DNA of 64,000 bases from an uncultured Alphaproteobacteria bacterium (GCA_950054485.1 CATLPD010000002.1:1-64000); one strand, 5' to 3'. Shown: positions 1 through 34,673, counted from the first letter of the stretch. Notes: generated by a model from the letters alone, not told the origin. Made by a program: numbers and translations.

Positions 1-3000
1 ATGGCCACACCCGGCGCGGATGTCAGTTCCAGCTGTCCGTTGGTGATGTTCGATGCGGTATATGTGATGTCGGTTGCAGCATCATCGGCGTCAGTTCCGG
101 CGAGGACGGCGGCGTCGATGGTGACGGAGGCGCCCTCGAGGATATCGGCCGGGTTGGTGATGGTCAGCTGTGGTGCATCGTTTTGATCAGTGATATTTAT
201 AGTGACGGTAATAGTGTTAGAGTCTTCCACACCATCATTGGCTATAATATCGAGTGTATAGCTTGTTGTGCCGCTTTCGAAATCAAAGTTTCCATCACCG
301 TTAACTGTAATGTTACCAGAGTTGTCGATAAGGAATAATCCTGTCCCTGTGCCCCCTGTGATAGAGTATGTAATAGTGTCAGCGGGCACATCTGCATCTG
401 TAGCTGCATTTATAGTACCAACAGCGTCGGTATCACCAGCTTGTTCTCCGATTGAGAATGGTCCAGATGCCGGTAAAATAGGGGCATCGTTTTCATCTGT
501 GATGTTAACAGTTAATGTTATTGTATTAGAGTTGTCAGTGCCATCATTTGCAACAATATCGAGCGTGTAACTGGTTGTTGTTTCGTAGTCAAAGTTGCCA
601 TTTCCATCGACTGTAATATTACCGGAGTTATCAATCAGGAACAGGCCAGCACCAGACCCCCCAACGATAGAATATGTAATTGTATTGGCTGGAACGTCCT
701 CGTCTGTTGCGGCGCTCACAGTACCTACGGGGTCGGTGTCTACAGCATATTCTCCGATTGAGAAAGGGCCAGAGGCAGGAAGAACAGGCGCGTCATTTTG
801 ATCAACTATATCTATAGTTACAGTTATCGTATTAGAATTTGCCGTACCATCATTCGCGACGATATCAAGAGTATAACTAGTCGTCGTTTCGTAGTTGAAA
901 TTGCTATTACCATCTACGGTAATATTACCGGAGTTATCAATCAGGAACAGGCCAACACCAGACCCCCCAATAATAGAGTAGGTAATCGTGTCGGCTGGAA
1001 CATCTTCATCTGTAGCAGCATTAACAGTTCCGACGGGATCCGTATCAACGGCATGCTCACCAATAGAGAAGGGGCCTGAAGCAGGTAGTACAGGTACATC
1101 ATTTTCGTCAATAATATTGATGGTAACAGTGATAGTGTTTGAGGCTGTTGTGCCATCGTTGGCCACAATGTCGAGTGTGTAACTTGTTGTACCGCTTTCA
1201 AAATCAAAGTTTCCATCACCATCTACTGTGATATTACCAGAGTTATCAATCAGGAATAATCCGGTTCCTGTGCCCCCTACGATCGAGTATGTAATTGTAT
1301 CCGCAGGAACGTCTGCATCTGTTGCCGTAACGGTGCCGACAGCATCTGTATCACCAGCATGTTCACCAATCCCAAAAGGACCAGAGGCCGGTAATACGGG
1401 AGCATCATTTTCGTCGGTAATATTAACGGTTACAGTGACGCTATTAGAATTATCTGTACCATCGTTTGCTATAATGTCCAATGTATAAGATGTAGTCACT
1501 TCGTAATCGAAATTGCCATCACCATCTACTGTAATATTACCGGAGTTATCAATCAGGAATAATCCTGCTCCTGAGCCACCCACGATAGAGTATGTAATCG
1601 TGTCCGCAGGGACATCTTCATCAGTCGCGGCGCTTACGGTTCCAACAGCGTCAGTGTCGCCAGCGTGCTCACCGATTGAGAAGGGGCCAGAGGCGGGCAA
1701 AACAGGAGCGTCATTTTCGTCGGTAATATTAACGGTAACTGTAATCGTATTTGAATCAATTGTTCCATCATTCGCGACGATATCAAGAGTATAACTAGTC
1801 GTCGTTTCGTAGTTGAAATTGCTATTACCGTCTACGGTAATGTTACCGGAGTTATCAATCAGGAATAATCCTGCCCCTGAGCCGCCCACGATAGAGTATG
1901 TAATCGTGTCCGCAGGGACATCTTCATCAGTCGCGGCGCTTACGGTTCCAACAGCGTCAGTGTCGCCAGCGTGCTCACCGATTGAGAAGGGGCCAGAGGC
2001 GGGCAAAACAGGAGCGTCATTTTCGTCGGTAATATTAACGGTAACTGTAATCGTATTTGAATCAATTGTTCCATCATTCGCGACGATATCAAGAGTATAA
2101 CTAGTCGTCGTTTCGTAGTTGAAATTGCTATTACCGTCTACGGTAATGTTACCGGAGTTATCAATCAGGAATAATCCGCTCCCGGAGCCGCCCACGATCG
2201 AGTATGTAATCGTATCTGCAGGGACATCTTCATCAGTCGCGGCGCTTACGGTTCCGACAGCGTCAGTGTCGCCGGCTGTTTCTGCTATAGAAAACGGTCC
2301 CGAAGCAGGAAGAACAGGGGCGTCGTTCTCGTCGGTAATATTAACGGTTACCGTAATGGTGTTTGAATCAATTGTTCCATCATTCGCGACGATATCAAGA
2401 GTATAACTAGTCGTCGTTTCGTAGTTGAAGTTGCTATTACCGTCTACGGTAATATTACCGGAGTTATCAATCAGGAATAATCCTGCCCCTGAGCCGCCTA
2501 CGATCGAGTATGTAATCGTATCTGCAGGGACATCTTCATCAGTCGCGGCGCTTACGGTTCCGACAGCGTCAGTGTCGCCGGCTGTTTCTGCTATAGAAAA
2601 CGGTCCCGAAGCAGGAAGAACAGGGGCGTCGTTCTCGTCGGTAATATCAACGGTTACCGTAATGGTGTTTGAATCAATCGTCCCGTCATTAGCAAGGATG
2701 TCGAGCGTGAAGCTTGTGGGGCCACCTTCAAAATCAAAGTTGCCATTGCCGTCTACGGTAATATTACCGGAGTTATCAATCAGGAATAATCCGCTCCCGG
2801 AGCCGCCTACGATCGAGTATGTAATCGTATCCGCAGGGACATCTTCATCAGTTGCAGCGCTAACGGTTCCGACAGCGTCAGTGTCGCCGGCATTTTCACC
2901 AACAGAGAATGGCCCGGAAGCGGGCAGAACAGGAACGTCGTTTTCGTCGGTAATGTTAATTGTGACAGTACGCGTATTTGAGTCGACTGTCCCATCGTTC

Positions 3001-6000
3001 GCAACGATATCAAGAGTATAACTTGTCGTTCCTCCTTCAAAGTTGAAATTACCATCGCCATTAACTGTAATATTGCCCGAATTATCAATCAGGAAAAGCC
3101 CAGCGCCTGTCCCACCCGTAATAGAATAGGTGATTGTGTCTGCTGGAATATCAGAATCTGTAGCTGTTATTGTACCAACGGCATCTGTGTCGCCCGAATG
3201 CTCTCCAATTGCAAACGGGCCTGTCGCAGGTAATACAGGCGCATCATTTACAGGGGTAACCGTAATAACAAATGTTTCTACAGCAGTTGTGGTCGTTCCG
3301 TCTGTAAGCTGGAAGTCAAAACTAGCCGGAGAACCTTCAGACCCATCGTGTACAAACCGAAGTTTGTTTGATTGTATATCGTTCTGACTAAAGCTCGTAA
3401 TAGCCACTCCAGGCGCAGAGGTTAATTCAAGCTGACCACCAGTAATGGATGTAACATTATAGATTATACTGGGGTTAGATGTGTCCGGGTCACTTGCAGA
3501 TAGACGTGCGGTTGTCATTGCTAGCGTTGCGCCCTCGGCAATTGTGGCACCTGTATTGGTTGTCAGGGCAGGCGGCTCATCTGTATCCGTAATGTTTACG
3601 GTTACTGTAATGGTGTTTGAATTATCGGTTCCGTCATTTGCAACGATATCCAAAGTGTAACTTGTTGTACCGCTTTCGAAATCAAAGTTGCCAAAGCCAT
3701 CAACCGTAATATTACCGCTGTTATCAATTTGAAAAAGGCCGGACCCCGTACCGCCTGTAATGCTGTATGTGATGGTATCAGCGGGTACATCCTCGTCCGT
3801 TGCTGCGCTGATGGTTCCGACAGGATCATTATCACCCGCATTTTCGCCAATCGAGTAGGGGCCGGAAGCAGCGAGCACGGGTGCATCATTAACATCCGTG
3901 ATGTTTATAACAACTGTTTGCTCGTCGAATTTGTTGCCGGGCCCATCATCAGTTGCGCGGATTACCAAGCTGTATGACGTGCTAGACTCATAATTCAGAT
4001 TAGTGTTGTCAATGACAGTAATCTCACCGGTAATTGAGTTTACTTGGAATATTCCATCTGCGTTGCCGCTTTGAATGCTGTATGTGATGTTATCCAGTTC
4101 AGCATCAAAAGATGTCATCGTACCAATGGACGTGTTATTGATCGCGTCTTCTGCAATAGAGAAGGGACCAGCCGGGGCTAAGATCGGATCGGTGTTAACA
4201 ATAACCGTAATCGCCCATGTGTCGGACACTGTTGTAGTACCGTCGGATACGTTAAAATCGAACCCTGCAGTCGTTGTGGGTGTATTATCATGGTCAAAAC
4301 TGATAATACCATAGTCAACGTCCGCCTGCGTAAAAGTCTGCCCAACGCTTAAAGCTGTTCCGGACCGTCTGACGGTACCGTTTGCATAGGCCGTAATCGT
4401 ATATGTGATCTGGTTAATCGAGTTGTCGGGGTCGATTGTTTGCAGGTGCTGCGTAAATATACCTTGATCCGCGCCCTGGGCCATCTCATCACCTGAATTA
4501 TAACGCACGACAGGCGGATCATTTGCACCTGTGTCAACTAAATCAACATTAAGGACATAACTGTTAGATATTGTTGTTGTGCCATCTGACACATTGAAAT
4601 CAAACCCGGCCTGACCATCAGCTGTGTCATCGTGGACGAAGTAAATATAACCGCTATCAATATCAGCTTGGGTGAATGAAGCGACAAAAGCGGATAAATT
4701 TGTATCGTATACGCTGCCATCATCAAGTGTTGTAAGTGTATATACAATATTTGTTGTCGCAGTATCTACATCAGTAACTTCAAGATCGGCATTTGTAATC
4801 TGAACAAAGCTACCTTTTTGGACATAGCCTATTTCATTTGTAGAAACTACGGGCGGGTCATCCCCAGGGTCATCAAAAGGCGTTACGGATATATCAAAGC
4901 GATCTAAAACAATCCAGTTACCATCGGTTAAACGGAAATTAAAACTGGCGTTTGTTGTGTCCGTTCCATCGTGAACGAAATCAACGCGCCCATTATCGAT
5001 ATCGTCTTGAGTAAATGTCTGCCCCAACGTCAAAGCTGTACCATTTAATTCCACATTACCATTCGTAAATCCGACGATCTGATACAAAATTGATGTGTTT
5101 GCTGTGTCGTTATCAAGGGCGTTAAGCTGAGTGTTGCTCAGAGTTAAAGTGTCACCCTCAAGCATGGTGGCGCCGGTATTAAATTCGAGTGTTGGACGAT
5201 TTGTCCATTTTAAGGCCTGGTAGCTCTCAAGGTCTGATATTTCCTGATCAGTAAGGGCGTGGTTCCATTGCCAGATTTCACCGATCCAGCCTTGGAAGTT
5301 GGCGCCATCACCAGGAAAAGATAAGTCTCGCGGATCTAGAGATTGTGCATTAATTCCACCGATACCAATATCAGCTGTGTGGTTGGCCTGCGCCCCCACA
5401 GACTGTAGCGTAATGAAATTTCCACCGTTAACGTTAGATTTAATTTCTCCTGAAGCACCTGCAGTCGAGTCAAAAACCATTATCACGTTATAAACAGTGT
5501 TTTGGGCGATAGCCCCATGGTTCATGACTTTAAATCGGTCCGCACCCCATTCAGATCCTGTATCGTTATAACCTGATACATACAAAAGACCGTCGGCAAT
5601 AGCTACTTGATACCCGCGAATACCCCCGCCTTGCTCATAAATAACCTGAAATGAATTAATATCAGTGCCGGTTTTAAAAGTAAAAGCAAAGCTCTTTTCG
5701 GGAAATGGGCCGTTAGAGTTAATATTTGTCTCATTGTCTATTTCTAATTCATCGTTGCCATCAAAATAGAGGCCGCCTCGTCCTGTACCAAATGCATTAT
5801 CATCATAAATTGGCGCGTTCGAGGATACATCGGCATCGTGCTGACCGCCAGTAGCTCCTGTACCATCAACCCAGTTTGTTACGCTTGCACCATCAGCGGG
5901 CTGATCTCCTAAAGAATAGTCATCATCGCCATCAATATCTTGTGCGTCTAAGTGATATACTTGATTCGGAATAGCTTCTACAGCCGCAAAAATAGCGGCA

Positions 6001-6071
6001 GCATCAAGCATGGTGCGCTTTTCAAGCGCCTGCTGCACCTTTTTAATTTTGCTTTTTTTCTTACCGGCCAT
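1..6071 (-). CDS. Giant cadherin-repeat surface adhesin, LEPR-XLL-like N-terminus (C-terminal part beyond window)
   Basis: An open minus-strand frame of at least 2023 codons starts at the ATG at 6069-6071 and runs off the left edge. The N-terminus has a basic stretch, then LEKRTMLDAAAIFAAVEAIP, which resembles the LEPR-XLL domain that opens many of the largest known bacterial adhesins. Residues about 45-287 form a LamG/jelly-roll-like domain (GWIGEIWQWNHALTDQEI near its end). CSPG/Cadherin_3-type repeats follow at about 290-620, two cadherin repeats at 624-827, another CSPG-type repeat at 830-940, then about ten cadherin repeats of 102-103 residues, each with D-x-N-D-x-P linkers that normally bind calcium. 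A further CSPG-type repeat is cut by the window edge. There is no Sec signal peptide, as expected of proteins exported by a C-terminal signal. The export genes lie directly upstream. The role, calcium-dependent adhesion or biofilm formation, is inferred from the domains. Confidence 0.9.
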   Translation of the reverse strand, partial: MAGKKKSKIKKVQQALEKRTMLDAAAIFAAVEAIPNQVYHLDAQDIDGDDDYSLGDQPADGASVTNWVDGTGATGGQHDADVSSNAPIYDDNAFGTGRGGLYFDGNDELEIDNETNINSNGPFPEKSFAFTFKTGTDINSFQVIYEQGGGIRGYQVAIADGLLYVSGYNDTGSEWGADRFKVMNHGAIAQNTVYNVIMVFDSTAGASGEIKSNVNGGNFITLQSVGAQANHTADIGIGGINAQSLDPRDLSFPGDGANFQGWIGEIWQWNHALTDQEISDLESYQALKWTNRPTLEFNTGATMLEGDTLTLSNTQLNALDNDTANTSILYQIVGFTNGNVELNGTALTLGQTFTQDDIDNGRVDFVHDGTDTTNASFNFRLTDGNWIVLDRFDISVTPFDDPGDDPPVVSTNEIGYVQKGSFVQITNADLEVTDVDTATTNIVYTLTTLDDGSVYDTNLSAFVASFTQADIDSGYIYFVHDDTADGQAGFDFNVSDGTTTISNSYVLNVDLVDTGANDPPVVRYNSGDEMAQGADQGIFTQHLQTIDPDNSINQITYTITAYANGTVRRSGTALSVGQTFTQADVDYGIISFDHDNTPTTTAGFDFNVSDGTTTVSDTWAITVIVNTDPILAPAGPFSIAEDAINNTSIGTMTSFDAELDNITYSIQSGNADGIFQVNSITGEITVIDNTNLNYESSTSYSLVIRATDDGPGNKFDEQTVVINITDVNDAPVLAASGPYSIGENAGDNDPVGTISAATDEDVPADTITYSITGGTGSGLFQIDNSGNITVDGFGNFDFESGTTSYTLDIVANDGTDNSNTITVTVNITDTDEPPALTTNTGATIAEGATLAMTTARLSASDPDTSNPSIIYNVTSITGGQLELTSAPGVAITSFSQNDIQSNKLRFVHDGSEGSPASFDFQLTDGTTTTAVETFVITVTPVNDAPVLPATGPFAIGEHSGDTDAVGTITATDSDIPADTITYSITGGTGAGLFLIDNSGNITVNGDGNFNFEGGTTSYTLDIVANDGTVDSNTRTVTINITDENDVPVLPASGPFSVGENAGDTDAVGTVSAATDEDVPADTITYSIVGGSGSGLFLIDNSGNITVDGNGNFDFEGGPTSFTLDILANDGTIDSNTITVTVDITDENDAPVLPASGPFSIAETAGDTDAVGTVSAATDEDVPADTITYSIVGGSGAGLFLIDNSGNITVDGNSNFNYETTTSYTLDIVANDGTIDSNTITVTVNITDENDAPVLPASGPFSIAETAGDTDAVGTVSAATDEDVPADTITYSIVGGSGSGLFLIDNSGNITVDGNSNFNYETTTSYTLDIVANDGTIDSNTITVTVNITDENDAPVLPASGPFSIGEHAGDTDAVGTVSAATDEDVPADTITYSIVGGSGAGLFLIDNSGNITVDGNSNFNYETTTSYTLDIVANDGTIDSNTITVTVNITDENDAPVLPASGPFSIGEHAGDTDAVGTVSAATDEDVPADTITYSIVGGSGAGLFLIDNSGNITVDGDGNFDYEVTTSYTLDIIANDGTDNSNSVTVTVNITDENDAPVLPASGPFGIGEHAGDTDAVGTVTATDADVPADTITYSIVGGTGTGLFLIDNSGNITVDGDGNFDFESGTTSYTLDIVANDGTTASNTITVTINIIDENDVPVLPASGPFSIGEHAVDTDPVGTVNAATDEDVPADTITYSIIGGSGVGLFLIDNSGNITVDGNSNFNYETTTSYTLDIVANDGTANSNTITVTIDIVDQNDAPVLPASGPFSIGEYAVDTDPVGTVSAATDEDVPANTITYSIVGGSGAGLFLIDNSGNITVDGNGNFDYETTTSYTLDIVANDGTDNSNTITLTVNITDENDAPILPASGPFSIGEQAGDTDAVGTINAATDADVPADTITYSITGGTGTGLFLIDNSGNITVNGDGNFDFESGTTSYTLDIIANDGVEDSNTITVTINITDQNDAPQLTITNPADILEGASVTIDAAVLAGTDADDAATDITYTASNITNGQLELTSAPGVA
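190..3250 (-). repeat. Tandem cadherin-repeat array, about ten units of 306-309 bp
   Basis: The conserved plus-strand block around GAGTTATCAATCAGGAA (coding IDNSGNIT on the minus strand) recurs near 314, 620, 926, 1235, 1541, 1847, 2153, 2459, 2768 and 3077. The period is 306 or 309 bases and stays in frame. Each unit encodes one cadherin domain. Some neighbours are almost identical and others are clearly diverged. Confidence 0.93.
1583..2178 (-). repeat. Two consecutive, essentially identical 306-bp units
   Basis: About 290 bases starting at 1583 match, by eye without change, the 290 bases starting at 1889. This includes silent positions that differ in the other repeats. The next pair (about 2219 and 2525) shares about 145 bases with one difference near 2647. 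This is the footprint of very recent in-frame duplication. Confidence 0.85.
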
Positions 6072-6139
6072 AACTACTACTCACACAAGACTTTAATATT
6101 ATTTTAACAGTTAGCTGTTACTAAAAAGTTAACAAATGT

Positions 6140-8281
6140 TTACAAGTTGATTTCCCGCAGAATAAGCGAGACTAATTCGGTTCCGATTTTTTCGATAAGA
6201 CTTATTGGATCACCCTCTGTAAAAATTATGCCCTGTTTTGTATTGTTTTTAAAGAACTTTTCAGCATTTTTGTCTTCAAGCCTGAAATTTACAATATAGA
6301 GTGGTCTGCGGGATTTTAAAGAGGATGAAGATTTGTCCATATCGGCAGGGATCAGCCCGCCATGAAGTGAAGACAGCTCTGGGTGTGCCAGATCACGCGT
6401 GTCCTTATTCGCGATTTTTATAACTTTAACGCCAACCCCCCTAGCAAAAGCCGTATGCGGATAAAATTGACCTTCATCACTCAAGTTAACGCGACGGATG
6501 TCTTCTTCGTTAACATAGCCTGTAATCGTTACATTGTTATTTTGCACGACGCGGAATAAGGACTCGGTCGTGCTTATCCATCTATTTTGATGTATGGATG
6601 ATTGCAGGTCTTTAATAATACCATCAAAAGGAGCCTTAATCGTCAAGTCTTCTTTCAAGCGATTCAATCCTTCTAAACGAATTTCATACTCTACAATTGT
6701 TTGGTCTATGGTGTGGTCTTCATTTAAAAGCTCGGTACTCGTTTGGATGCGGTCGCGTATTGTCTTGTAATATTCAAGCTGTGTGATCGCTTCTTGAATT
6801 TGGTAATCAATTGTAGGTGATACAAGCGTTGCCAAATTATCACCTTTGCGGACAGCTTGATTGTTTTGAACATTGATCTTCATAATTTTTGCCGGTGCGG
6901 GTGAATAGGCAGAATAATATTCCCCTGCATAAATGATTGCGGGTATGCGCACAGTTGAATTAATGGGCAAGAAAGATAAAACCAATAAGAAGATGGCAAA
7001 CAGAAGGGTAAAGCGTCCGCGGGCGTTTTTGAAGATATCTTCACGCTCCAGATACCAATATGCAACTTCCTTGTATATAGGCAGCGCGATAAACCATAGG
7101 ATTTCGATGGTAAACAAAATCAGCCCCAAAGGCTTGAAGGCCAGGTTATAAACCAGTAAAGCAATACCGAGGTATAAGAAAAACCTGTATATAACCAGCG
7201 CTATACCAAATCCCTGTAAGAAACGCCCCTGACTTGTATCAGAGTGTTCAGGGGGTTCGACCTTCAGGCCGAAAAGAAATTTACGCAGGCGCCATTTCAT
7301 CATGGCTATGGATCGCTCTTGAAGGTTATCAATTCCAATGTAGTCACTCAGAAGATAATAGCCGTCAAATTTCATCAGTGGATTCATATTGATCAGAACA
7401 GAAGCCAGCAGCGAAAGGAATCCGATATAGAATACAAGGTTCTGTAAGAACCCGGGGGGCAGGGTATTCCAGGCCAATAGCGCTATGGCGGAAAGAAACA
7501 TTTCAGCCATTACGCCGGCAGCGGCGATATGCATCCTTTTTTTACGATCATATAGGCGCCAGGCATTGGTCGTTTCCGTATAGAAAATTGGGTACAGAAC
7601 AATAAATGCAACGCCCATCGACGATATAGGGACTTTGTATTTCACCGCGACAAATGCATGCCCCATTTCATGGACCAGTTTGATAAAAATAGTCGAAACC
7701 ATTATCAAAAGGATGCTTTCAGTATTAAAGAAACTGGTGAAAGTTAGAAAAAATTCGTCGATACGCTCCAAAGTGATGAATATAGCCGCTAAAAACAGGC
7801 AGCATGTCGCGATAAAGAAACCTTTAGAAAATAGGGGGGCTACATATGGGTATATCTTTTCAAGACGATGTTGTGGACGAAAAAGCGGCAGACGGAAATA
7901 AAGGTATTTTGTTGTTAACGTCCATAAAGGGTTGGGCTTTTGCTTGTTTTTTTCCTTCTCCAGAAACTGACGAACAGCTAAGTTATGCGAGCCCAATAGC
8001 TTGTTCAGCAGTAAGAAATATATGAATTCGTTTACATCGCTTATTTCAGGTTCTAGGGTTGTTTCCGCTATCAGTCTGTCACGTACCTGCGAGGATGATT
8101 GGCACTTGTCCCATCTTTTCAGGCATTCAAATTCAAACCAGCCAATTTTAAAATAGTTATCAGAGACCGGGTCATAGATCATCCATGTGGGGCTACCATC
8201 CATTTCATGACCGCCTTCATGGATGCTTAAATCTTGTCTGATTTTTGGTAAAAGAAGATCTTCTTCCGGAGATATGGCCAT
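6140..8281 (-). CDS. PqqD-like / M50 site-2-protease-like / HlyD-like fusion membrane protein
   Basis: This 713-residue inner membrane protein joins three modules. Residues about 25-95 resemble a PqqD-type peptide-binding fold (GSPTWMIYDPVSDNYFKIGW). Residues about 150-440 are multi-spanning and carry the M50 zinc signature HEMGH plus the second motif NPLMKFDGYY. Residues about 455-713 are a biotinyl-lipoyl/HlyD-type periplasmic arm with a helical hairpin (EYYSAYSPAPAKIMKINV, then IKAPFDGIIKDL). The gene begins 3 bases after the GAF-HlyD gene and ends 68 bases before the adhesin start, so it is probably co-transcribed with both. M50 enzymes cleave substrates within or near the membrane. Here it may process or gate the adhesin, but that is inference. 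The zinc ligands look intact. Confidence 0.85.
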   Translation of the reverse strand: MAISPEEDLLLPKIRQDLSIHEGGHEMDGSPTWMIYDPVSDNYFKIGWFEFECLKRWDKCQSSSQVRDRLIAETTLEPEISDVNEFIYFLLLNKLLGSHNLAVRQFLEKEKNKQKPNPLWTLTTKYLYFRLPLFRPQHRLEKIYPYVAPLFSKGFFIATCCLFLAAIFITLERIDEFFLTFTSFFNTESILLIMVSTIFIKLVHEMGHAFVAVKYKVPISSMGVAFIVLYPIFYTETTNAWRLYDRKKRMHIAAAGVMAEMFLSAIALLAWNTLPPGFLQNLVFYIGFLSLLASVLINMNPLMKFDGYYLLSDYIGIDNLQERSIAMMKWRLRKFLFGLKVEPPEHSDTSQGRFLQGFGIALVIYRFFLYLGIALLVYNLAFKPLGLILFTIEILWFIALPIYKEVAYWYLEREDIFKNARGRFTLLFAIFLLVLSFLPINSTVRIPAIIYAGEYYSAYSPAPAKIMKINVQNNQAVRKGDNLATLVSPTIDYQIQEAITQLEYYKTIRDRIQTSTELLNEDHTIDQTIVEYEIRLEGLNRLKEDLTIKAPFDGIIKDLQSSIHQNRWISTTESLFRVVQNNNVTITGYVNEEDIRRVNLSDEGQFYPHTAFARGVGVKVIKIANKDTRDLAHPELSSLHGGLIPADMDKSSSSLKSRRPLYIVNFRLEDKNAEKFFKNNTKQGIIFTEGDPISLIEKIGTELVSLILREINL

Positions 8282-8284
8282 CGC

Positions 8285-9688
8285 TTATCCCCCTATGCCA
8301 AAAAGATTTCTCATGGCTATCAATGGGCGTCGGAACAGGTTAAAAAGCAAAATTGTATCTTCCCCGTAAAGCTTGGCATTGCCCGTTAAGCCAATTCGAG
8401 GAATATCCTGAGGGCTCTTTATATTTGCGCGTGCCTTATAGCTTAACAGTCCATCCTCATCAGGGCTTGCCATGTAACTTATGGTGCTGATGTTGGCCTC
8501 ATGCGTCTTAAGAGGTTCAATATTTAAAAAGAAATTTATTTCCGAGGCGCGTTTTAGGTCGATCATGCTTGCTGAAGGTATGCGAACCAGCAACTCAAGG
8601 TCGGAAGCATCTGCAATTGTCATGACGCGCGTACCGGCCTGAACCGGTTGACCGATGATTTCGTTCACGTCCGAAAACAGGACGACACCTGAACGGTCGG
8701 CCTTTATTTCCGACTGCTCCAGCAGTTCCTTGGTGTATTGTAATTCTAGCTGTCTTAATTTTATTTGTTCGCGCAAGACGTTTACTTCGTTACCGCGTGC
8801 GGGATCGCGGAAGAACTCACGCTCGGTCTTCTCAAGCTTTTCACGTGCAGTCAGTAGTTTTTGCTGCGCAAGCGCATATTCATTCTCAAGCTCTGTTCGA
8901 TCAAGAACAAATAATGTCTGTCCCTGCGTGACATTGTCGTTAGGCTCGACCATTACATCTTTTATCATCCCGCTGTAGGGCGATGCGATGACGTGAATAT
9001 CTTTTGACACGACTTCGGCTGGTGCACTTACCGATAATCTTACAGGTAGAAACATCAAAGCCAGCAAGATCAGGAAAATAGCCCCACCGACACTCTTAAG
9101 GGACCGGAGCCTTTTTAACGGAGAAAGAGAAGACCTGTAAATGTAACGTAGTTTTTCGGACAGGGCATCCGATGTATCTTCAATCAAAGCCATTTCAACA
9201 TTGCTGAAGGGCTGTGTACGGTCGACCCATATTCCGCCAAGCACCTGATTTTCGTTATAACAAACTGCCAGTATAATATGCTCTGCAGTCGCTATTTTTT
9301 CTGTAGGCGCCTCCAGATCTTTCCGAACTTTTAAATCCTTTTTATTCAATTGAAAAGCTTTGGCGCCACCTTGGTGATCAAAAAGCTCGGATACGACCTC
9401 TTTTTTATTTAGATTCTCGCTTGCAATGTGCTGACGGATGGTTCGTCCAACTGTTTGTATATATGGGCTGTCTGTAGTGACATCCAACTGTCCGGAAGCT
9501 GATGAAATGTGGATTTTTCCAGCCTTGTATTCCCAGAAAAGGCACTGCCGGTAAGGCACGACATTATAAAGGTCGTTGACGATGTAAAAGCCGATCTGAT
9601 CAAGGCTTTTCTTGTGTCTTAACTGCTTTAGGAAAGACAGAAATGACACAAGGTGCATAACTTCCTTGCTGACTTTTTTATCACTCAC
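8285..9688 (-). CDS. GAF-domain / HlyD-family membrane fusion protein
   Basis: This 467-residue protein has a cytoplasmic N-terminal region of about 190 residues with a GAF-like pattern (YNVVPYRQCLFWEYKAGKIH, later ILAVCYNENQVLGGIWVDRT). One membrane span follows near 205-225 (GGAIFLILLALMFLPV). A HlyD-type adaptor comes next: lipoyl half-motif (VIASPYSGMIKDVMVEPNDN), a charged coiled coil of about 80 residues, second half-motif (IKADRSGVVLFSDV) and a beta-barrel. It overlaps the upstream adaptor gene by 4 bases (ATGA). Joining a small-molecule or protein-sensing GAF domain to an adaptor suggests that export is gated from the cytoplasm. The ligand is unknown, and the GAF call rests on pattern only. 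Confidence 0.8.
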   Translation of the reverse strand: MSDKKVSKEVMHLVSFLSFLKQLRHKKSLDQIGFYIVNDLYNVVPYRQCLFWEYKAGKIHISSASGQLDVTTDSPYIQTVGRTIRQHIASENLNKKEVVSELFDHQGGAKAFQLNKKDLKVRKDLEAPTEKIATAEHIILAVCYNENQVLGGIWVDRTQPFSNVEMALIEDTSDALSEKLRYIYRSSLSPLKRLRSLKSVGGAIFLILLALMFLPVRLSVSAPAEVVSKDIHVIASPYSGMIKDVMVEPNDNVTQGQTLFVLDRTELENEYALAQQKLLTAREKLEKTEREFFRDPARGNEVNVLREQIKLRQLELQYTKELLEQSEIKADRSGVVLFSDVNEIIGQPVQAGTRVMTIADASDLELLVRIPSASMIDLKRASEINFFLNIEPLKTHEANISTISYMASPDEDGLLSYKARANIKSPQDIPRIGLTGNAKLYGEDTILLFNLFRRPLIAMRNLFGIGG

Positions 9689-10887
9689 GGCCGGCCGCCC
9701 AGATTTAAACCGAGAAATCCTGATGTTATATTTAGATCGCCACGACGGAAAGTCGCACGACCGCTCATACCGGGCAGTAATTCTTCCTGATATGTATCAA
9801 GACGCGCGACGACATGTGCCGTACGACTGACGGGATCAATTTCACCATGCACACGTGTGATCGTAGCAGCATAGTTTCTACCGCTTTCGTTCACGTATAT
9901 TTCTGCGGGCGTACCGACATTGATCCACTTCAGCCACTCCGATGGTATCAGAAGTTCTGCTTGCAAAGGCTCTGTTGATCCGATCTGCATCAAAACACGA
10001 CCCGAACGCGATGCCTCGAACGCATTCGCCTCTCTATCCATCACGCGACCATTAAAGGGCGCATATATTGTGCAGCGTCTCTCAACGGCTTGCGCCTGTT
10101 CCAGCAGAGCGCGATTTTGTTCGTTTTGCTCGACGGCGCTTAGGTATTCGACTTCAGACATCGTGTTGTTTTGTTGCAGGCGATCAAGCGCCTCAACCTG
10201 ACGACGTGAAAGCCTGAAGCGCGCCTGCATTTCTGACACACGCGCACGTTCAAAATCGCATCTGTACTCAACCAGGACATCCCCTTCGTTGAACTTTTCG
10301 CCATTGTCAAATGGCATTGATAAAATAACACCGTCCATGCTGCCTGATATAACGGCCGATTTGACCGAAGTCAGAACAGCTTGGACGGTGAGGTTCTCGC
10401 CGAGATTATCCAGTTCCGGGGAATAACTCGGCGATAAAACGTTTGATGTGCTTAAGCTATCAATAGGATCAATGGCGTTTTCAGCCCCTGAAACAGCTTC
10501 ATCATTAAAGTCGACTTGCGTAAATTCTGTTGTGGGGGTATCGCTCGCTTGTTCTTCTGCGTAGTAATCATTAGTGCTTTCCGATATCTGGGTGCTTTCA
10601 TCCGCGCCTTCAAAGGCCTCATCGGTAGAGATGTTCTGGTCTTCATCATCCTCGACATTCAGCCCACCTGATGTCTCGTATATCGGTGCGGCAATTTCCA
10701 CATCGGGCGGGGTTGTGTAATCAGAAAGAATGGACATCTGCGCGGCTGTTTTGACATCCATTGTTTCCACGGGCTGTGTATAAAGCTTTTGCGCCCACCA
10801 TATCCCCAACAGCGTAACACCAAACACAGTAGCTATAACGAAAAAGTTCTTTTTCTTTTTGCTGGTATCTACGGGGCGTTTATCCAT
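9685..10887 (-). CDS. HlyD/AcrA-type periplasmic adaptor with long acidic linker
   Basis: This membrane fusion protein of about 400 residues has an N-terminal anchor (NFFVIATVFGVTLLGIWW). A low-complexity, very acidic and Ser/Thr-rich stretch covers about residues 45-150. A typical RND-style adaptor follows: lipoyl domain (VISGSMDGVILSMPFDNGEKF), hairpin (VEALDRLQQNNTMSEVEYL), second lipoyl half (IYAPFNGRVMDREA) and beta-barrel. I place the start at the ATG at 10887 rather than the GTG two codons upstream, because a G-rich Shine-Dalgarno lies just before it. It overlaps the TolC gene end by 8 bases. It should bridge an inner membrane partner to the TolC-like protein. No RND pump or ABC transporter is adjacent. 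Confidence 0.85.
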   Translation of the reverse strand: MDKRPVDTSKKKKNFFVIATVFGVTLLGIWWAQKLYTQPVETMDVKTAAQMSILSDYTTPPDVEIAAPIYETSGGLNVEDDEDQNISTDEAFEGADESTQISESTNDYYAEEQASDTPTTEFTQVDFNDEAVSGAENAIDPIDSLSTSNVLSPSYSPELDNLGENLTVQAVLTSVKSAVISGSMDGVILSMPFDNGEKFNEGDVLVEYRCDFERARVSEMQARFRLSRRQVEALDRLQQNNTMSEVEYLSAVEQNEQNRALLEQAQAVERRCTIYAPFNGRVMDREANAFEASRSGRVLMQIGSTEPLQAELLIPSEWLKWINVGTPAEIYVNESGRNYAATITRVHGEIDPVSRTAHVVARLDTYQEELLPGMSGRATFRRGDLNITSGFLGLNLGGRP

Positions 10888-12358
10888 TACCACCCCCGAT
10901 ACGTTGCTCTGCTAATGTAAAAAGGTCCAGACGCTTGTAATCGCTGTAATCAAAGCCAATTGAGTTTGCAAAGCGTGCAAAAGTTGAGTGGACAGAGGCG
11001 GCGCTATTCAAATGCTTAAGCTCGGCAATTAAAGCATCCATGCTGATATTTACAAATTCAAGCCCGCCAATTAAACCGACATCCCTACGTTTTTCAAGGC
11101 GCACAGCCTCTGCCGTATATTTTTTAGACAGGCGGTTAAGTGCCGCATAGCGATCGTTGGCATTTTCGTGCAAGCGCTTTGCTATATAAACTTGCGCAGC
11201 CACTGCAGCAATCAGGGCGCGACGACGCGCATCAGCAAGTGCCTGCTGTTGTTTTGCGCGCTCATACCGCGAGGAGAACGTAATAATGTTGTTTATGTTC
11301 TGCGTAAGGGACGCTGTGAGGCTTAACCAGCGATTATCGACAAGAAACTTGTTTTCATCATAATTCGCATTCACCAAAAGATTAAGACCAGGAATTGTTT
11401 CATATATCTGCAGCTTCACGTCGCGCTCAGCGATCTTTTTATTTAGAAGCTCCTCAGCAATTTCAGGACGTTTCTTGAGCGCAAAATCGACGAAATCTTC
11501 AGCGCTCCCTTTAATGTTCATGAAACTGTCAAATTCGAATATATTTTCAGGGTATATTAGAACAAGCGGCTTATCTAAAGGGTATGAAATCAGAGCCTTC
11601 AACTCTATTTCAGCGAGGGAGAACTCCTCGTATATAGACAGCAGACTGGCACGCTTTTCCAGCATCTCGACCTCTGCAGAATGAATGCGACTCTGCTCAA
11701 GGTCCCCCGCACTTCTTGCCGCCTCAAGGTTTTCAAGCTGACGGTCAGATTCTGCATTGATGTCAGCTATGCGACCACCTAATTCACGGCTTACTGCTGT
11801 GCGCCAATAGGCACTATATACATCCATTATGATGTTTTGACGAACCTTTCGGGCGCGCTCCTCTGCAATGATGGCGCGATCAACAGCGGATTTTGAACGG
11901 TATATGCTTAAAACGCTATCCAGAACATTCCAGTTCATCTCCAACAATGACGTAAAGCGGGTAGGCTCTGCTGAAATAGAAGGCTCAAGGGACTGAGTGC
12001 CTGTAATCGTGGATTGGCTGGAGCTGGCCCCGTCATTGTTACGGGTCAGAAAGTCAGCTTTTGCGGTCAAAGAGGGCAGAGCACTCAGCTTTTGCAAATC
12101 AGCATCGCTCATTGCGACTTGATAATCCTTTTCAGCAATTCTCGCATCAAGGTTATATTCCAAAGCGCGGTCAATCGCCCCCTCCAGAGACAGGGATTCA
12201 ACGCCAGCTTCGGGATAGATATCATTCAAATCGTTTCGGATAATTTCAGAAGAGGACATTTGCAATGTTGCAGGCGCATTGCAGCCCACAGCCATAACAC
12301 ATACTGCAAGTAACGCGGGCAATAAACACCCTTTATTTATCAAATTAAATATCTGCAT
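10880..12358 (-). CDS. TolC-family outer membrane lipoprotein
   Basis: This 492-residue protein has a lipoprotein signal peptide (LLAVCVMAVGC, cysteine near residue 26) and two outer membrane efflux protein repeats rich in long amphipathic helices (SLEGAIDRALEYNLDARIAE, later FVDFALKKRPEIAEELLNKK). It would form the trimeric outer membrane tunnel. It is the first gene of the minus-strand cluster. A promoter-like sequence and a palindrome lie just upstream, and a GGGGA Shine-Dalgarno sits 5 bases before the ATG. The family is clear; which substrate uses this tunnel is inferred from the cluster. Confidence 0.9.
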   Translation of the reverse strand: MQIFNLINKGCLLPALLAVCVMAVGCNAPATLQMSSSEIIRNDLNDIYPEAGVESLSLEGAIDRALEYNLDARIAEKDYQVAMSDADLQKLSALPSLTAKADFLTRNNDGASSSQSTITGTQSLEPSISAEPTRFTSLLEMNWNVLDSVLSIYRSKSAVDRAIIAEERARKVRQNIIMDVYSAYWRTAVSRELGGRIADINAESDRQLENLEAARSAGDLEQSRIHSAEVEMLEKRASLLSIYEEFSLAEIELKALISYPLDKPLVLIYPENIFEFDSFMNIKGSAEDFVDFALKKRPEIAEELLNKKIAERDVKLQIYETIPGLNLLVNANYDENKFLVDNRWLSLTASLTQNINNIITFSSRYERAKQQQALADARRRALIAAVAAQVYIAKRLHENANDRYAALNRLSKKYTAEAVRLEKRRDVGLIGGLEFVNISMDALIAELKHLNSAASVHSTFARFANSIGFDYSDYKRLDLFTLAEQRIGGGNG

Positions 12359-12388
12359 TTGTCCCCGGAACTGGGATTTTTTTTAGAT

Positions 12389-12402
12389 AGGCAGAACTGC
12401 CT
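12389..12402. promoter_or_regulatory. Palindrome AGGCAG-AA-CTGCCT in the leader of the adhesin-export operon
   Basis: Perfect 6-bp arms with a 2-base spacer lie between the predicted -10 element and the TolC start codon. It could be an operator or an RNA hairpin in the leader. There is no T-tract after it on either strand, so it is unlikely to be a terminator. Confidence 0.5.
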
Positions 12403-12411
12403 TATATATTC

Positions 12412-12440
12412 ATGTTAAATTATCCGAATCGAAAAAGCAA
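12412..12440 (-). promoter_or_regulatory. Candidate sigma-70 promoter of the adhesin-export operon
   Basis: On the minus strand a TTGCTT -35 (12435-12440) is separated by 17 bases from a TAACAT -10 (12412-12417). This puts transcription start roughly 45 bases before the TolC ATG. Both boxes match the consensus in 4 of 6 positions. Confidence 0.45.
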
Positions 12441-12468: not shown

Positions 12469-12493
12469 AAAGCAGACCCTATGGGCCTGCTTT
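12469..12493 (-). terminator. Rho-independent-like terminator after the DHH gene
   Basis: Read on the minus strand, AAAGCAGGCCC and GGGTCTGCTTT form an 11-bp stem with one G-T pair and a 3-base loop. The end of the stem is a run of four T. It sits 36 bases after the DHH gene stop and before the promoter of the next operon. Confidence 0.65.
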
Positions 12494-14658: not shown

Positions 14659-15572
14659 TGTCAGACTAACGCGAACTTTTCTCCGGATGCTCACTACGTC
14701 AAATATCAGGCAACAAGAATTTCATTCCAGATATTGACTGAAACATTTCTTAAACTTTTAAAATGTGGTCTTTTTTCGATGTGGTGTTGATGGTTAAAAT
14801 GGTTCTGAAACGTGGACTGAATTGCCGTGAATTTTTGCAAAGATCGGGCAAGTCTAAATTTATTCATCATCTTCTCCCGTCGTCGAAAATGCAGGTGCGA
14901 ATTTTCAATTTGATTGTTCTTATATTGCCGCGTTTCATGAATATCCACCATATTTAAATCGCGCATTGCGGCGCGGTAAGATTTCAATTTATCGGTAGTA
15001 ATTTCTTTAGGCCTACCATGATTTCTGACCAGTTTTCTGAGAACTTTTCTAACCGATTTTTTATCTCGGCGTTTTGTAACGAAACAGTCTAAAACCGTGC
15101 CCTCATGGTCGATTACCCGCCATAGGTAATGAAGTTCACCCTTGATTTTGACGAAAACCTCATCGATATGCCAGCGCCAATTTGATGGAGAGTGCGCGCG
15201 TTTTTTCTTGAGCTCTTGCGCAACAATAGGGCCAAGTTTTTCTACCCAATATCGAATGGTTTCATGCGTGATATCAATGCCACGTTCGTGCAAAATATCT
15301 TCAACCTGTCGCAGGCTAAGTGGATATCGAACGTAATACATGATCGCGAGTTTTATGATTTCAGGACTTGATTTGTAATATTTGAATGGATTAATCTTGC
15401 TCATATCTTAACTATACCGTGAAAAAGCAAAAAAACAAAGGCATGGACATTTAGTGGGTTGCCAAGTTTCCATTTAAATGGTCTTCTGTAGCGGGGTTAA
15501 ATTAAAAGGTCAAATTGAGGGCTGAAAGTGCGATTTCTGGAAAAATTCAAAAAAAGCCGTTTTAGTCTGACA
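14659..15572 (-). mobile_element. IS6-family insertion sequence with readable inverted-repeat ends
   Basis: The element of about 914 bp is bounded by 11-bp inverted repeats, TGTCAGACTAA at 14659-14669 and its reverse complement at 15562-15572. It encodes one transposase on the minus strand. I see no 8-bp target duplication: the flanks are CGTGGTGA and AGACCGAA. This fits a copy whose two sides no longer descend from one insertion event, as happens when IS6 elements recombine or delete adjacent DNA. The right end lies inside a pilin-like reading frame. Confidence 0.75.
14706..15404 (-). CDS. IS6-family (IS26/IS240-like) DDE transposase
   Basis: This 232-residue protein is full length for the family and uninterrupted. 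An N-terminal helix-turn-helix region (LRQVEDILHERGIDITHETI) precedes the catalytic core. The DDE triad is visible as WHIDEVFVKI, ITTDKLKSY and NNQIENSHLHFRRRE, the last being the IS6 region where E is followed by a basic helix. It acts on the ends of its own element. Nothing in the sequence suggests inactivation. The stop lies 47 bases from the left inverted repeat, and the start is 158 bases from the right one. Confidence 0.92.
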   Translation of the reverse strand: MSKINPFKYYKSSPEIIKLAIMYYVRYPLSLRQVEDILHERGIDITHETIRYWVEKLGPIVAQELKKKRAHSPSNWRWHIDEVFVKIKGELHYLWRVIDHEGTVLDCFVTKRRDKKSVRKVLRKLVRNHGRPKEITTDKLKSYRAAMRDLNMVDIHETRQYKNNQIENSHLHFRRREKMMNKFRLARSLQKFTAIQSTFQNHFNHQHHIEKRPHFKSLRNVSVNIWNEILVA

Positions 15573-32900: not shown

Positions 32901-34673
32901 ATGACGGATGCTGTAAAGCAAGAAAATAGTGCGACAGATAGCCGCGCCCTGATCAGGCGCTTGGCGAAGACTTATCTTAAGCCGTATGTGCCAACGCTTT
33001 CAATCTCTGTCGGTTTAATGGTGATTGCTGCCGCTATGACGGGCGCAATGGCCAAGCTGATGGAGCCTGTGATTGATGATGTCTTTACGGCTCAGGATGA
33101 AAGCATGCTATGGCCTGTTGCCATTGCCGTCTTTCTGACTTTTGCCATTCGCGGTATCGCGACATATTTTCATTCAATATTACTCAGTAAGGTCAGTCAG
33201 CGCATTGTTGCGGATATTCAGAATGATCTTTTCTCGCACATCATGTCACTGGATATGGGCTTTTTTCAGGAATTGAAAACTGGGCAGTTGCTGTCACGCA
33301 TGACGTCGGATGCAACTGTAATGCGTAGTTCTGTTACAGAGACACTGTTGGGGGTGTTTAAAAATTCAATCACTCTGGTTATCTTGGTTGCCGTCATGTT
33401 TTATCAGGACTGGAAACTGGCCTTAATTGCATTGGTGATTTTCCCCATTGTTGCGGGACTGGTTGTGAAGCTTGGGCGTAAGTTACGACATGTTTCATCC
33501 TCAGCTCAAAGTCAGTTGGGCGATCTGGCCACAGACCTGACCCAAGCCTTTCAGGGGGTAAGACATGTCAAAGCCTACGGCATGGTTGATTACGAGAAAT
33601 CCAGAATAAACAACACAGTAGAGCGCATTTATAAACTAACTTTTAAGGGGCTTCGCACCTCTGCGCTGACGACGCCGATCTCTGAAATCCTGAGTGGCCT
33701 CGCAATTGTAACAATTATCATATATGGCGGTTTTCAGGTTATTGCCGGCGAAAGTACAGCGGGTCAGCTTTTCTCGTTCATTACTGCTTTTATGTTGGCA
33801 TACGAGCCTATGAAGCGTTTGGCAAAACTGAATACGATCATGCAAGTTGGCCTATCAGCTGCGGATCGTATATTTAATGTTCTCGATACCAAGCCTAAGA
33901 TTATAGATTACAAAGAGGCGCATGAAATGCGCGCGGATAGCTATACAATCACATTGGATAATATTTCATTCGTATATCCGGACGGAACCGAGGCTCTGCA
34001 TAATGTGAATATTGAAGTACCGGAAGGCAAGACGGTTGCGCTGGTCGGCCCTTCAGGTTCGGGTAAGTCGACAATCATCAATTTGATTCCGCGTTTTTAT
34101 GATGTGGATAAAGGCGCGATCAAAATTGGTGATACAGATATACGTGATATCACTTTGGATTCCTTGCGAAAAAATATGGCACTTGTGAGTCAGGAAGTCA
34201 CAATCTTCAATGATACCGTACTGGACAATATTAAATACGGAACACCAGACGCAACGGTAGAGGACGTTATAAAAGCCGCCAAAGATGCTGCGGCTCACGA
34301 ATTTATTGAGGGCTTGCCAGATGGCTATAACACCGTTGTAGGGGAACAGGGCATTAAGTTATCAGGTGGTCAGCGCCAGCGTGTAGCTATTGCACGTGCA
34401 ATGTTGCGTAATGCGCCGATTCTTTTATTGGACGAGGCAACATCTGCCTTGGACAACCAGTCAGAACGACTCGTGCAAAATGCCTTGGATCGTTTGCAGG
34501 AAGGGCGAACTACGCTGGTCGTGGCCCACAGGCTATCAACGATTATTAATGCTGATATGATTTACGTTCTGAAAGACGGAGAAGTCGTTGAGAAGGGCAA
34601 GCACCAAAAATTATTACTGCAAAAGAAAAGTGTTTACTCCAAGCTATATGGGGTTGAATTCCAGGAAATATAG
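32901..34673 (+). CDS. msbA: ABC exporter, MsbA-like (fused permease-ATPase)
   Basis: This 590-residue half-transporter has six membrane spans in residues about 30-320 and an ATPase with Walker A GPSGSGKST, Q-loop VSQEVTIFND, signature LSGGQRQRVAIARAM and Walker B LLLDEATSALD, plus the H-loop AHRLS. It should work as a homodimer, flipping lipid A-core or another lipid. MsbA versus another lipid or drug exporter cannot be settled by sequence reading. It is the only ABC ATPase in the window and lies more than 20 kb from the adhesin cluster. It is not physically linked to that system. Confidence 0.88.
   Translation: MTDAVKQENSATDSRALIRRLAKTYLKPYVPTLSISVGLMVIAAAMTGAMAKLMEPVIDDVFTAQDESMLWPVAIAVFLTFAIRGIATYFHSILLSKVSQRIVADIQNDLFSHIMSLDMGFFQELKTGQLLSRMTSDATVMRSSVTETLLGVFKNSITLVILVAVMFYQDWKLALIALVIFPIVAGLVVKLGRKLRHVSSSAQSQLGDLATDLTQAFQGVRHVKAYGMVDYEKSRINNTVERIYKLTFKGLRTSALTTPISEILSGLAIVTIIIYGGFQVIAGESTAGQLFSFITAFMLAYEPMKRLAKLNTIMQVGLSAADRIFNVLDTKPKIIDYKEAHEMRADSYTITLDNISFVYPDGTEALHNVNIEVPEGKTVALVGPSGSGKSTIINLIPRFYDVDKGAIKIGDTDIRDITLDSLRKNMALVSQEVTIFNDTVLDNIKYGTPDATVEDVIKAAKDAAAHEFIEGLPDGYNTVVGEQGIKLSGGQRQRVAIARAMLRNAPILLLDEATSALDNQSERLVQNALDRLQEGRTTLVVAHRLSTIINADMIYVLKDGEVVEKGKHQKLLLQKKSVYSKLYGVEFQEI

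Follow-up and report, generated by a model that had tools for sequence, protein, structure and literature searches.

Type I protein export requires an ABC ATPase, an adaptor and TolC. The window, which is the whole stretch of 64,000 nucleotides analysed here, features at its left end five tightly packed minus-strand genes (3-12358) that encode a TolC-like protein, an adaptor, a GAF-HlyD fusion, an M50-HlyD fusion and a giant adhesin, and there is no ABC gene inside this five-gene cluster. The locus raises the question of how the giant adhesin would reach the cell surface. The features of the cluster are as follows.

12469-12493, minus strand: terminator-like hairpin of the preceding DHH-family gene, the upstream limit of the cluster (11 pairs, T-rich tail)
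10880-12358, minus strand: TolC-family outer membrane protein, 492 aa, with a lipoprotein-like N-terminal signal (Pfam OEP, 96.5 bits)
9685-10893, minus strand: HlyD/RND-type periplasmic adaptor, 402 aa, with one N-terminal membrane segment and an acidic linker (TIGR01730, 108.6 bits, above cut-off)
8285-9688, minus strand: GAF-HlyD fusion, 467 aa (predicted GAF fold, Z 14.5; adaptor part, Z 16.9 to MacA)
6140-8281, minus strand: M50-HlyD fusion, 713 aa (Pfam M50 in 50/50 members; adaptor part, Z 16.3 to MacA)
7658-7672, minus strand: HExxH motif of the M50 domain, residues 204-208 (H204, E205 and H208 invariant in 50 sequences)
7361-7384, minus strand: NPxxxxDG motif of the M50 domain, residues 300-307 (N300, P301, D306 and G307 invariant in 50 sequences)
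3-6071, minus strand: giant cadherin/Big adhesin, first 2,023 aa, open at the contig end (ORF and Pfam cadherin)
5997-6026, minus strand: N-terminal tag LEKRTMLDAA, adhesin residues 16-25 (motif common to giants in 37/80 loci)

Neighbouring genes of the cluster overlap by 14 and 4 bases or are separated by gaps of 3 and 68 bases. The coordinates, this spacing and the Pfam matches to OEP, HlyD and cadherin domains agree with an earlier note on this DNA, which had described five tightly packed minus-strand genes. Its statement that the cluster has no ABC ATPase also holds, and the nearest ABC-exporter frame in the window (32901-34673, plus strand) is of a generic kind and lies ~20 kb away. The promoter-like site that the note had placed at the start of the cluster was not recovered, as the scan gives no minus-strand promoter and a promoter count no higher than that of shuffled sequence; the scan does give the terminator-like hairpin of the preceding gene. 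A gene for an IS240/IS6-type transposase lies near the cluster (14706-15404).

The left edge of the window is a contig end, the window being bases 1-64000 of contig C2, and contig C4 very probably carries the continuation of the adhesin. At the very end of C4 (L021:12129-15002), an in-frame stretch of 957 aa shares the adhesin repeats and is the sole other adhesin match in the genome. The ends of C2 and C4 do not overlap and a stretch of undefined length is missing between them, so that the adhesin would comprise at least 2,980 aa (2,023 + 957, with the C4 join presumed). The adhesin stop on C4 is followed by an SDR dehydrogenase and other genes, and no ABC exporter was found near these probable downstream neighbours. 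The earlier suggestion that an ATPase might be encoded beyond the left edge, to be checked by reading the sequence to the left, is thus not borne out by the probable C4 continuation. Additionally, neither the window adhesin nor its C4 part contains RTX repeats, which are common but not universal in type I cargo.

A scan of GTDB genomes produced 80 loci from alpha-, gamma- and beta-proteobacteria, Nitrospira and Desulfobacterota, many of which are MAG contigs. At the 62 loci with at least 4.5 kb upstream, to which neighbour counts were restricted, the M50 gene is accompanied by GAF-HlyD in 62/62, by the adaptor in 59/62 and by TolC in 54/62, counts that depend on our own ORF calling and profiles and in which antisense frames in GC-rich DNA mask some genes. 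TolC, the HlyD-type adaptor, GAF-HlyD and M50-HlyD are a conserved module. Three adaptor-like proteins for one substrate, which had been remarked on as unusual, are the normal state of this family. Twelve other sampled genomes of the order have a clear M50-HlyD gene, and in the order-level neighbourhoods (n=11) the other module genes adjoin it within the limits set by contig ends and ORF calling; six of these eleven also have an adjoining tagged giant. The M50 protein was found in 69 of 397 sampled Pseudomonadota genomes, about one in six. In Micavibrio sp. DHS20C02 (L057) two tandem tagged giants precede one module. No clear tagged giant was found near the module in the stretch examined in G049, G020 and G019 (L039/L056, L040/L041 and L052/L053), whose cargo may be unlinked to the module. 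A second M50-HlyD group, at about 340-370 bits, is present in G222, G306, G316, G463, G121 and G142 and is possibly a related system with other cargo.

The module is also found in enterobacteria. An M50 protein at 99-100% identity is encoded on E. coli, Citrobacter and Hafnia plasmids and on a few E. coli chromosomes, and a match is present in 24 of 5,426 complete E. coli genomes. The near identity of these sequences in three genera suggests recent transfer. The giant, TolC, the adaptor, GAF-HlyD and M50-HlyD occur together in the three E. coli records examined, and the E. coli giant is a DUF4347-type protein of 4,459 aa with LESRQLFDGA near its start. No type I secretion system (T1SS) ATPase (LssB, PrtD or HlyB) was found on a 69-kb E. 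coli plasmid. Complete five-gene units were observed on E. coli plasmids and on a chromosome (L137, L138, L143, L144).

In the GAF-HlyD protein a GAF domain, predicted to be cytosolic, is followed by one membrane segment near residues 194-224 and then by an adaptor domain. Its model (mean pLDDT 90.6, built with 40 sequences) contains a GAF fold that matches 3ci6 over 151 residues at 3.0 A, next to the MacA-like adaptor part. Pfam GAF has no match in the window copy and matches 4 of 40 family members; the domain that the earlier note had read from the sequence is clear in the predicted fold. The M50-HlyD protein features a candidate PqqD-like N-terminal domain, a multi-helix M50 (S2P-type) domain and a C-terminal adaptor domain, and its model was built with 50 sequences (mean pLDDT 90.6). 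In the window copy the Pfam M50 match (25.7 bits) is slightly under the cut-off, and all 50 family members match. The invariant HExxH and NPxxxxDG motifs sit in the helical middle of the model, and the M50 region matches the site-2 protease MJ0392 (3b4r) by sequence (E 1.1e-4). Because adaptor matches fill the list in the fold search with the whole model, that search addresses the adaptor part. The first 100 residues are predicted to form three strands followed by three helices, like PqqD, and the sequence match is weak (1/24 members, E 0.0078), with no match to the PDB by sequence. The earlier assignment of a PqqD-M50-HlyD fusion is therefore confirmed for M50 and HlyD, and its PqqD part is kept here as a weakly supported candidate.

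The giants share an N-terminal tag with the consensus LE-x-R-x-x-[LFY]-D-[AG]. A search for frames of at least 300 aa with LE-x-R-x-[hydrophobic]-[LFY]-D-[AG]-small in the first 250 residues found a tagged giant in 37 of the 80 loci, where shuffled sequence gives an expectation of 0; at loci with no visible tag the giant often leaves the upstream end of the DNA examined. RTX repeats are almost absent from the giants of relatives. The tag resembles LEPR-XLL by eye, and an NCBIfam search with the adhesin N-terminus gave no LEPR-XLL match at E 10. A shared C-terminal tag was also considered and rejected, as cross-validated profiles recovered mostly close relatives.

The pairing of tag and module was examined in the 397 Pseudomonadota genomes with an M50 threshold of about 500 bits. 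M50 was found in 69 genomes, DUF4347 in 85 and both in 63 (Fisher p 7e-47, n=397), and at the genus level 34 genera have both, 3 M50 only, 18 DUF4347 only and 177 neither (p 4e-24); these p-values are a guide only, since shared ancestry persists. A DUF4347 giant is thus present in 63/69 M50-positive genomes and 34/37 genera. The tag was found in 26 of 28 DUF4347 loci from genomes matching the M50 profile and, in full, in 0 of 13 control regions (L205-L217) that encode DUF4347 proteins in genomes scoring under the M50 threshold, one of which (L213) is perhaps incomplete at its start. Four of the control giants start with Sec-like signals, one type combines a Sec-like start with a C-terminal anchor, several have RTX/T1SS-like ends and two adjoin an ABC exporter and an HlyD-like gene. 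The control giants, from genomes with no clear module, lack the full tag. The DUF4347 core thus occurs with differing export signals, of which the LE-x-R tag goes with the module. Two control giants carry LE-x-R-LL-x-S, which has no D, and the one in G238 has a distant M50 relative as a neighbour; tag and module may extend further than counted. At this G238 locus (L206) the giant has LEPRLLFSA and adjoins distant relatives of both M50-HlyD and GAF-HlyD.

We consider it rather probable that the four module proteins (TolC, the adaptor, GAF-HlyD and M50-HlyD) build a single export machine across the envelope for tagged giant repeat adhesins, which would operate with no ABC ATPase of its own. At the sequence level this rests on a conserved gene set, on a tag that occurs together with the module, on the conserved protease motifs and on the predicted GAF and adaptor folds. 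Export, the function that we infer, would begin on the cytosolic side, where the candidate PqqD-like domain of M50-HlyD would probably recognise the tag. The M50 membrane domain, as the protease, would then act on the tag, probably by cutting it. The three adaptor-like proteins would join TolC through a mixed ring of their HlyD parts, and the adhesin would travel to the surface, the GAF domain being a putative cytosolic switch. The modules of G049, G020 and G019, which have no clear tagged giant nearby, and a Vibrio protein that combines LEPR-XLL with RTX weigh against this reading. A bolder proposal, which we put forward tentatively and judge somewhat short of probable, is that this is a separate secretion class in which an S2P-type protease-adaptor fusion replaces the energised pump, reads the LE-x-R-x-x-x-D tag and passes giants to TolC without an ABC ATPase.

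The module could alternatively supply TolC, adaptors and a processing protease to ordinary type I secretion with an ABC ATPase encoded elsewhere. This genome does have two LssB/LapB-type ATPases and a further exporter pair, and 17 of the 30 genomes tested have such an ATPase over the cut-off, in a search that covered the LssB, PrtD and HlyB families with curated cut-offs; most module genomes, this one included, also have T1SS ATPases. Each LssB/LapB-type ATPase here, however, lies beside its own TolC-like and adaptor-like genes, and the cargo is almost free of RTX. Moreover, two module-bearing genomes that are complete or nearly so, Nitrospira sp. UBC2 (G056) and G155, gave no LssB, PrtD or HlyB match over the cut-off. 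In G089 the scores are no more than intermediate, and the ATPase type varies among the remaining complete or near-complete module genomes, which argues against one obligate T1SS ATPase; a generic ABC exporter beyond the three searched families could serve the module. The earlier note had proposed a survey of family co-occurrence and of the ATPase neighbourhood, and had held that an ABC transporter always present in relatives would make this an ordinary type I system. The survey, in addition to the conserved module, returned a full-length ABC exporter near 1 of the 80 loci (L122, a few kb away, by comparison with the ABC exporters of this genome), and the other ABC matches near the loci are short ATP-binding proteins; relatives thus do not always include an ABC exporter. 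We regard a type I system with a distant ATPase as unlikely, and of the two options originally offered, the gene set, the tag and the genomes with no T1SS ATPase over the cut-off speak for a different machine for export or display. The two LssB/LapB-type operons are located on contigs C6 and C4 (L022, L023), and the C6 operon follows a large repeat protein.

A two-step route is given a similarly low probability. Here, Sec would move the giant across the inner membrane, the tag region would be an odd signal or anchor cut by M50, and the adaptors and TolC would complete export. S2P proteases cleave membrane segments, and the stretch that follows the tag has moderate hydrophobicity, which in the window adhesin almost reaches that of the Sec-type controls. 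The median hydrophobicity of the tagged proteins is nevertheless below that of the controls, the tag itself contains E, R and D, and plain Sec-like DUF4347 giants are found where no clear module is seen. It is very improbable that the module plays no part in exporting the giant and merely acts as a sensor or trimming device for a surface protein that leaves the cell by other means. The protease and the GAF sensor would suit such a role, as would a module in which no energy source was found, but a TolC with three proteins of the adaptor type is export equipment, and the presence of the N-terminal tag follows that of the module. The preferred reading of one export machine for tagged giants is classed here as a variant of TolC-based export, because no ABC ATPase of the type I kind was assigned to it in the searches made, yet it shares the outer parts of type I systems.

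Several known systems invite comparison with the module. Type I systems that secrete giant adhesins (LapA/LapBCE, BapA class) likewise have a TolC-family channel, an HlyD-type adaptor and a neighbouring giant repeat adhesin, whereas the module cluster has no ABC ATPase gene, almost no RTX and an N-terminal tag, and it adds two adaptor fusions with GAF and M50 domains. The predicted adaptor folds match MacA and EmrA of tripartite efflux (MacAB-TolC, EmrAB-TolC, AcrAB-TolC), but the inner-membrane partner would be an M50 domain fused to an adaptor in place of an ABC, MFS or RND pump. Site-2 proteases such as MJ0392 share HExxH and NPxxxxDG with the module protein, which differs in its fusion to an adaptor and in being encoded with TolC and a giant cargo. 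The daptide M50 protease (NF041824) has a related M50 region, although the match of 152 bits is far under the cut-off of 300 bits and the gene neighbourhood differs. LEPR-XLL giants carry an LE-x-R motif at the N-terminus as well; a published giant Vibrio protein with LEPR-XLL also carries RTX, unlike the module giants, which have almost none. The IncHI RSP proteins are large Ig-like surface proteins of enterobacterial plasmids that have been reported to exit via a TrhC-dependent type IV system, and this route was rejected for the module giants as a different system. In P. tunicata the BapP cluster includes ABC genes of its own, and M. aeruginosavorus was reported to have an ordinary T1SS. No published description of the four-gene module was found in the open literature searched, which excludes most subscription papers and bioRxiv.

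Since tag and module go together, the question can be tested directly, and there are compact versions with five genes. If giants are exported without an ABC ATPase, an accepted rule of TolC-based protein export would fall, and many giants of undefined route, of the DUF4347 and LEPR types, would gain an export route.
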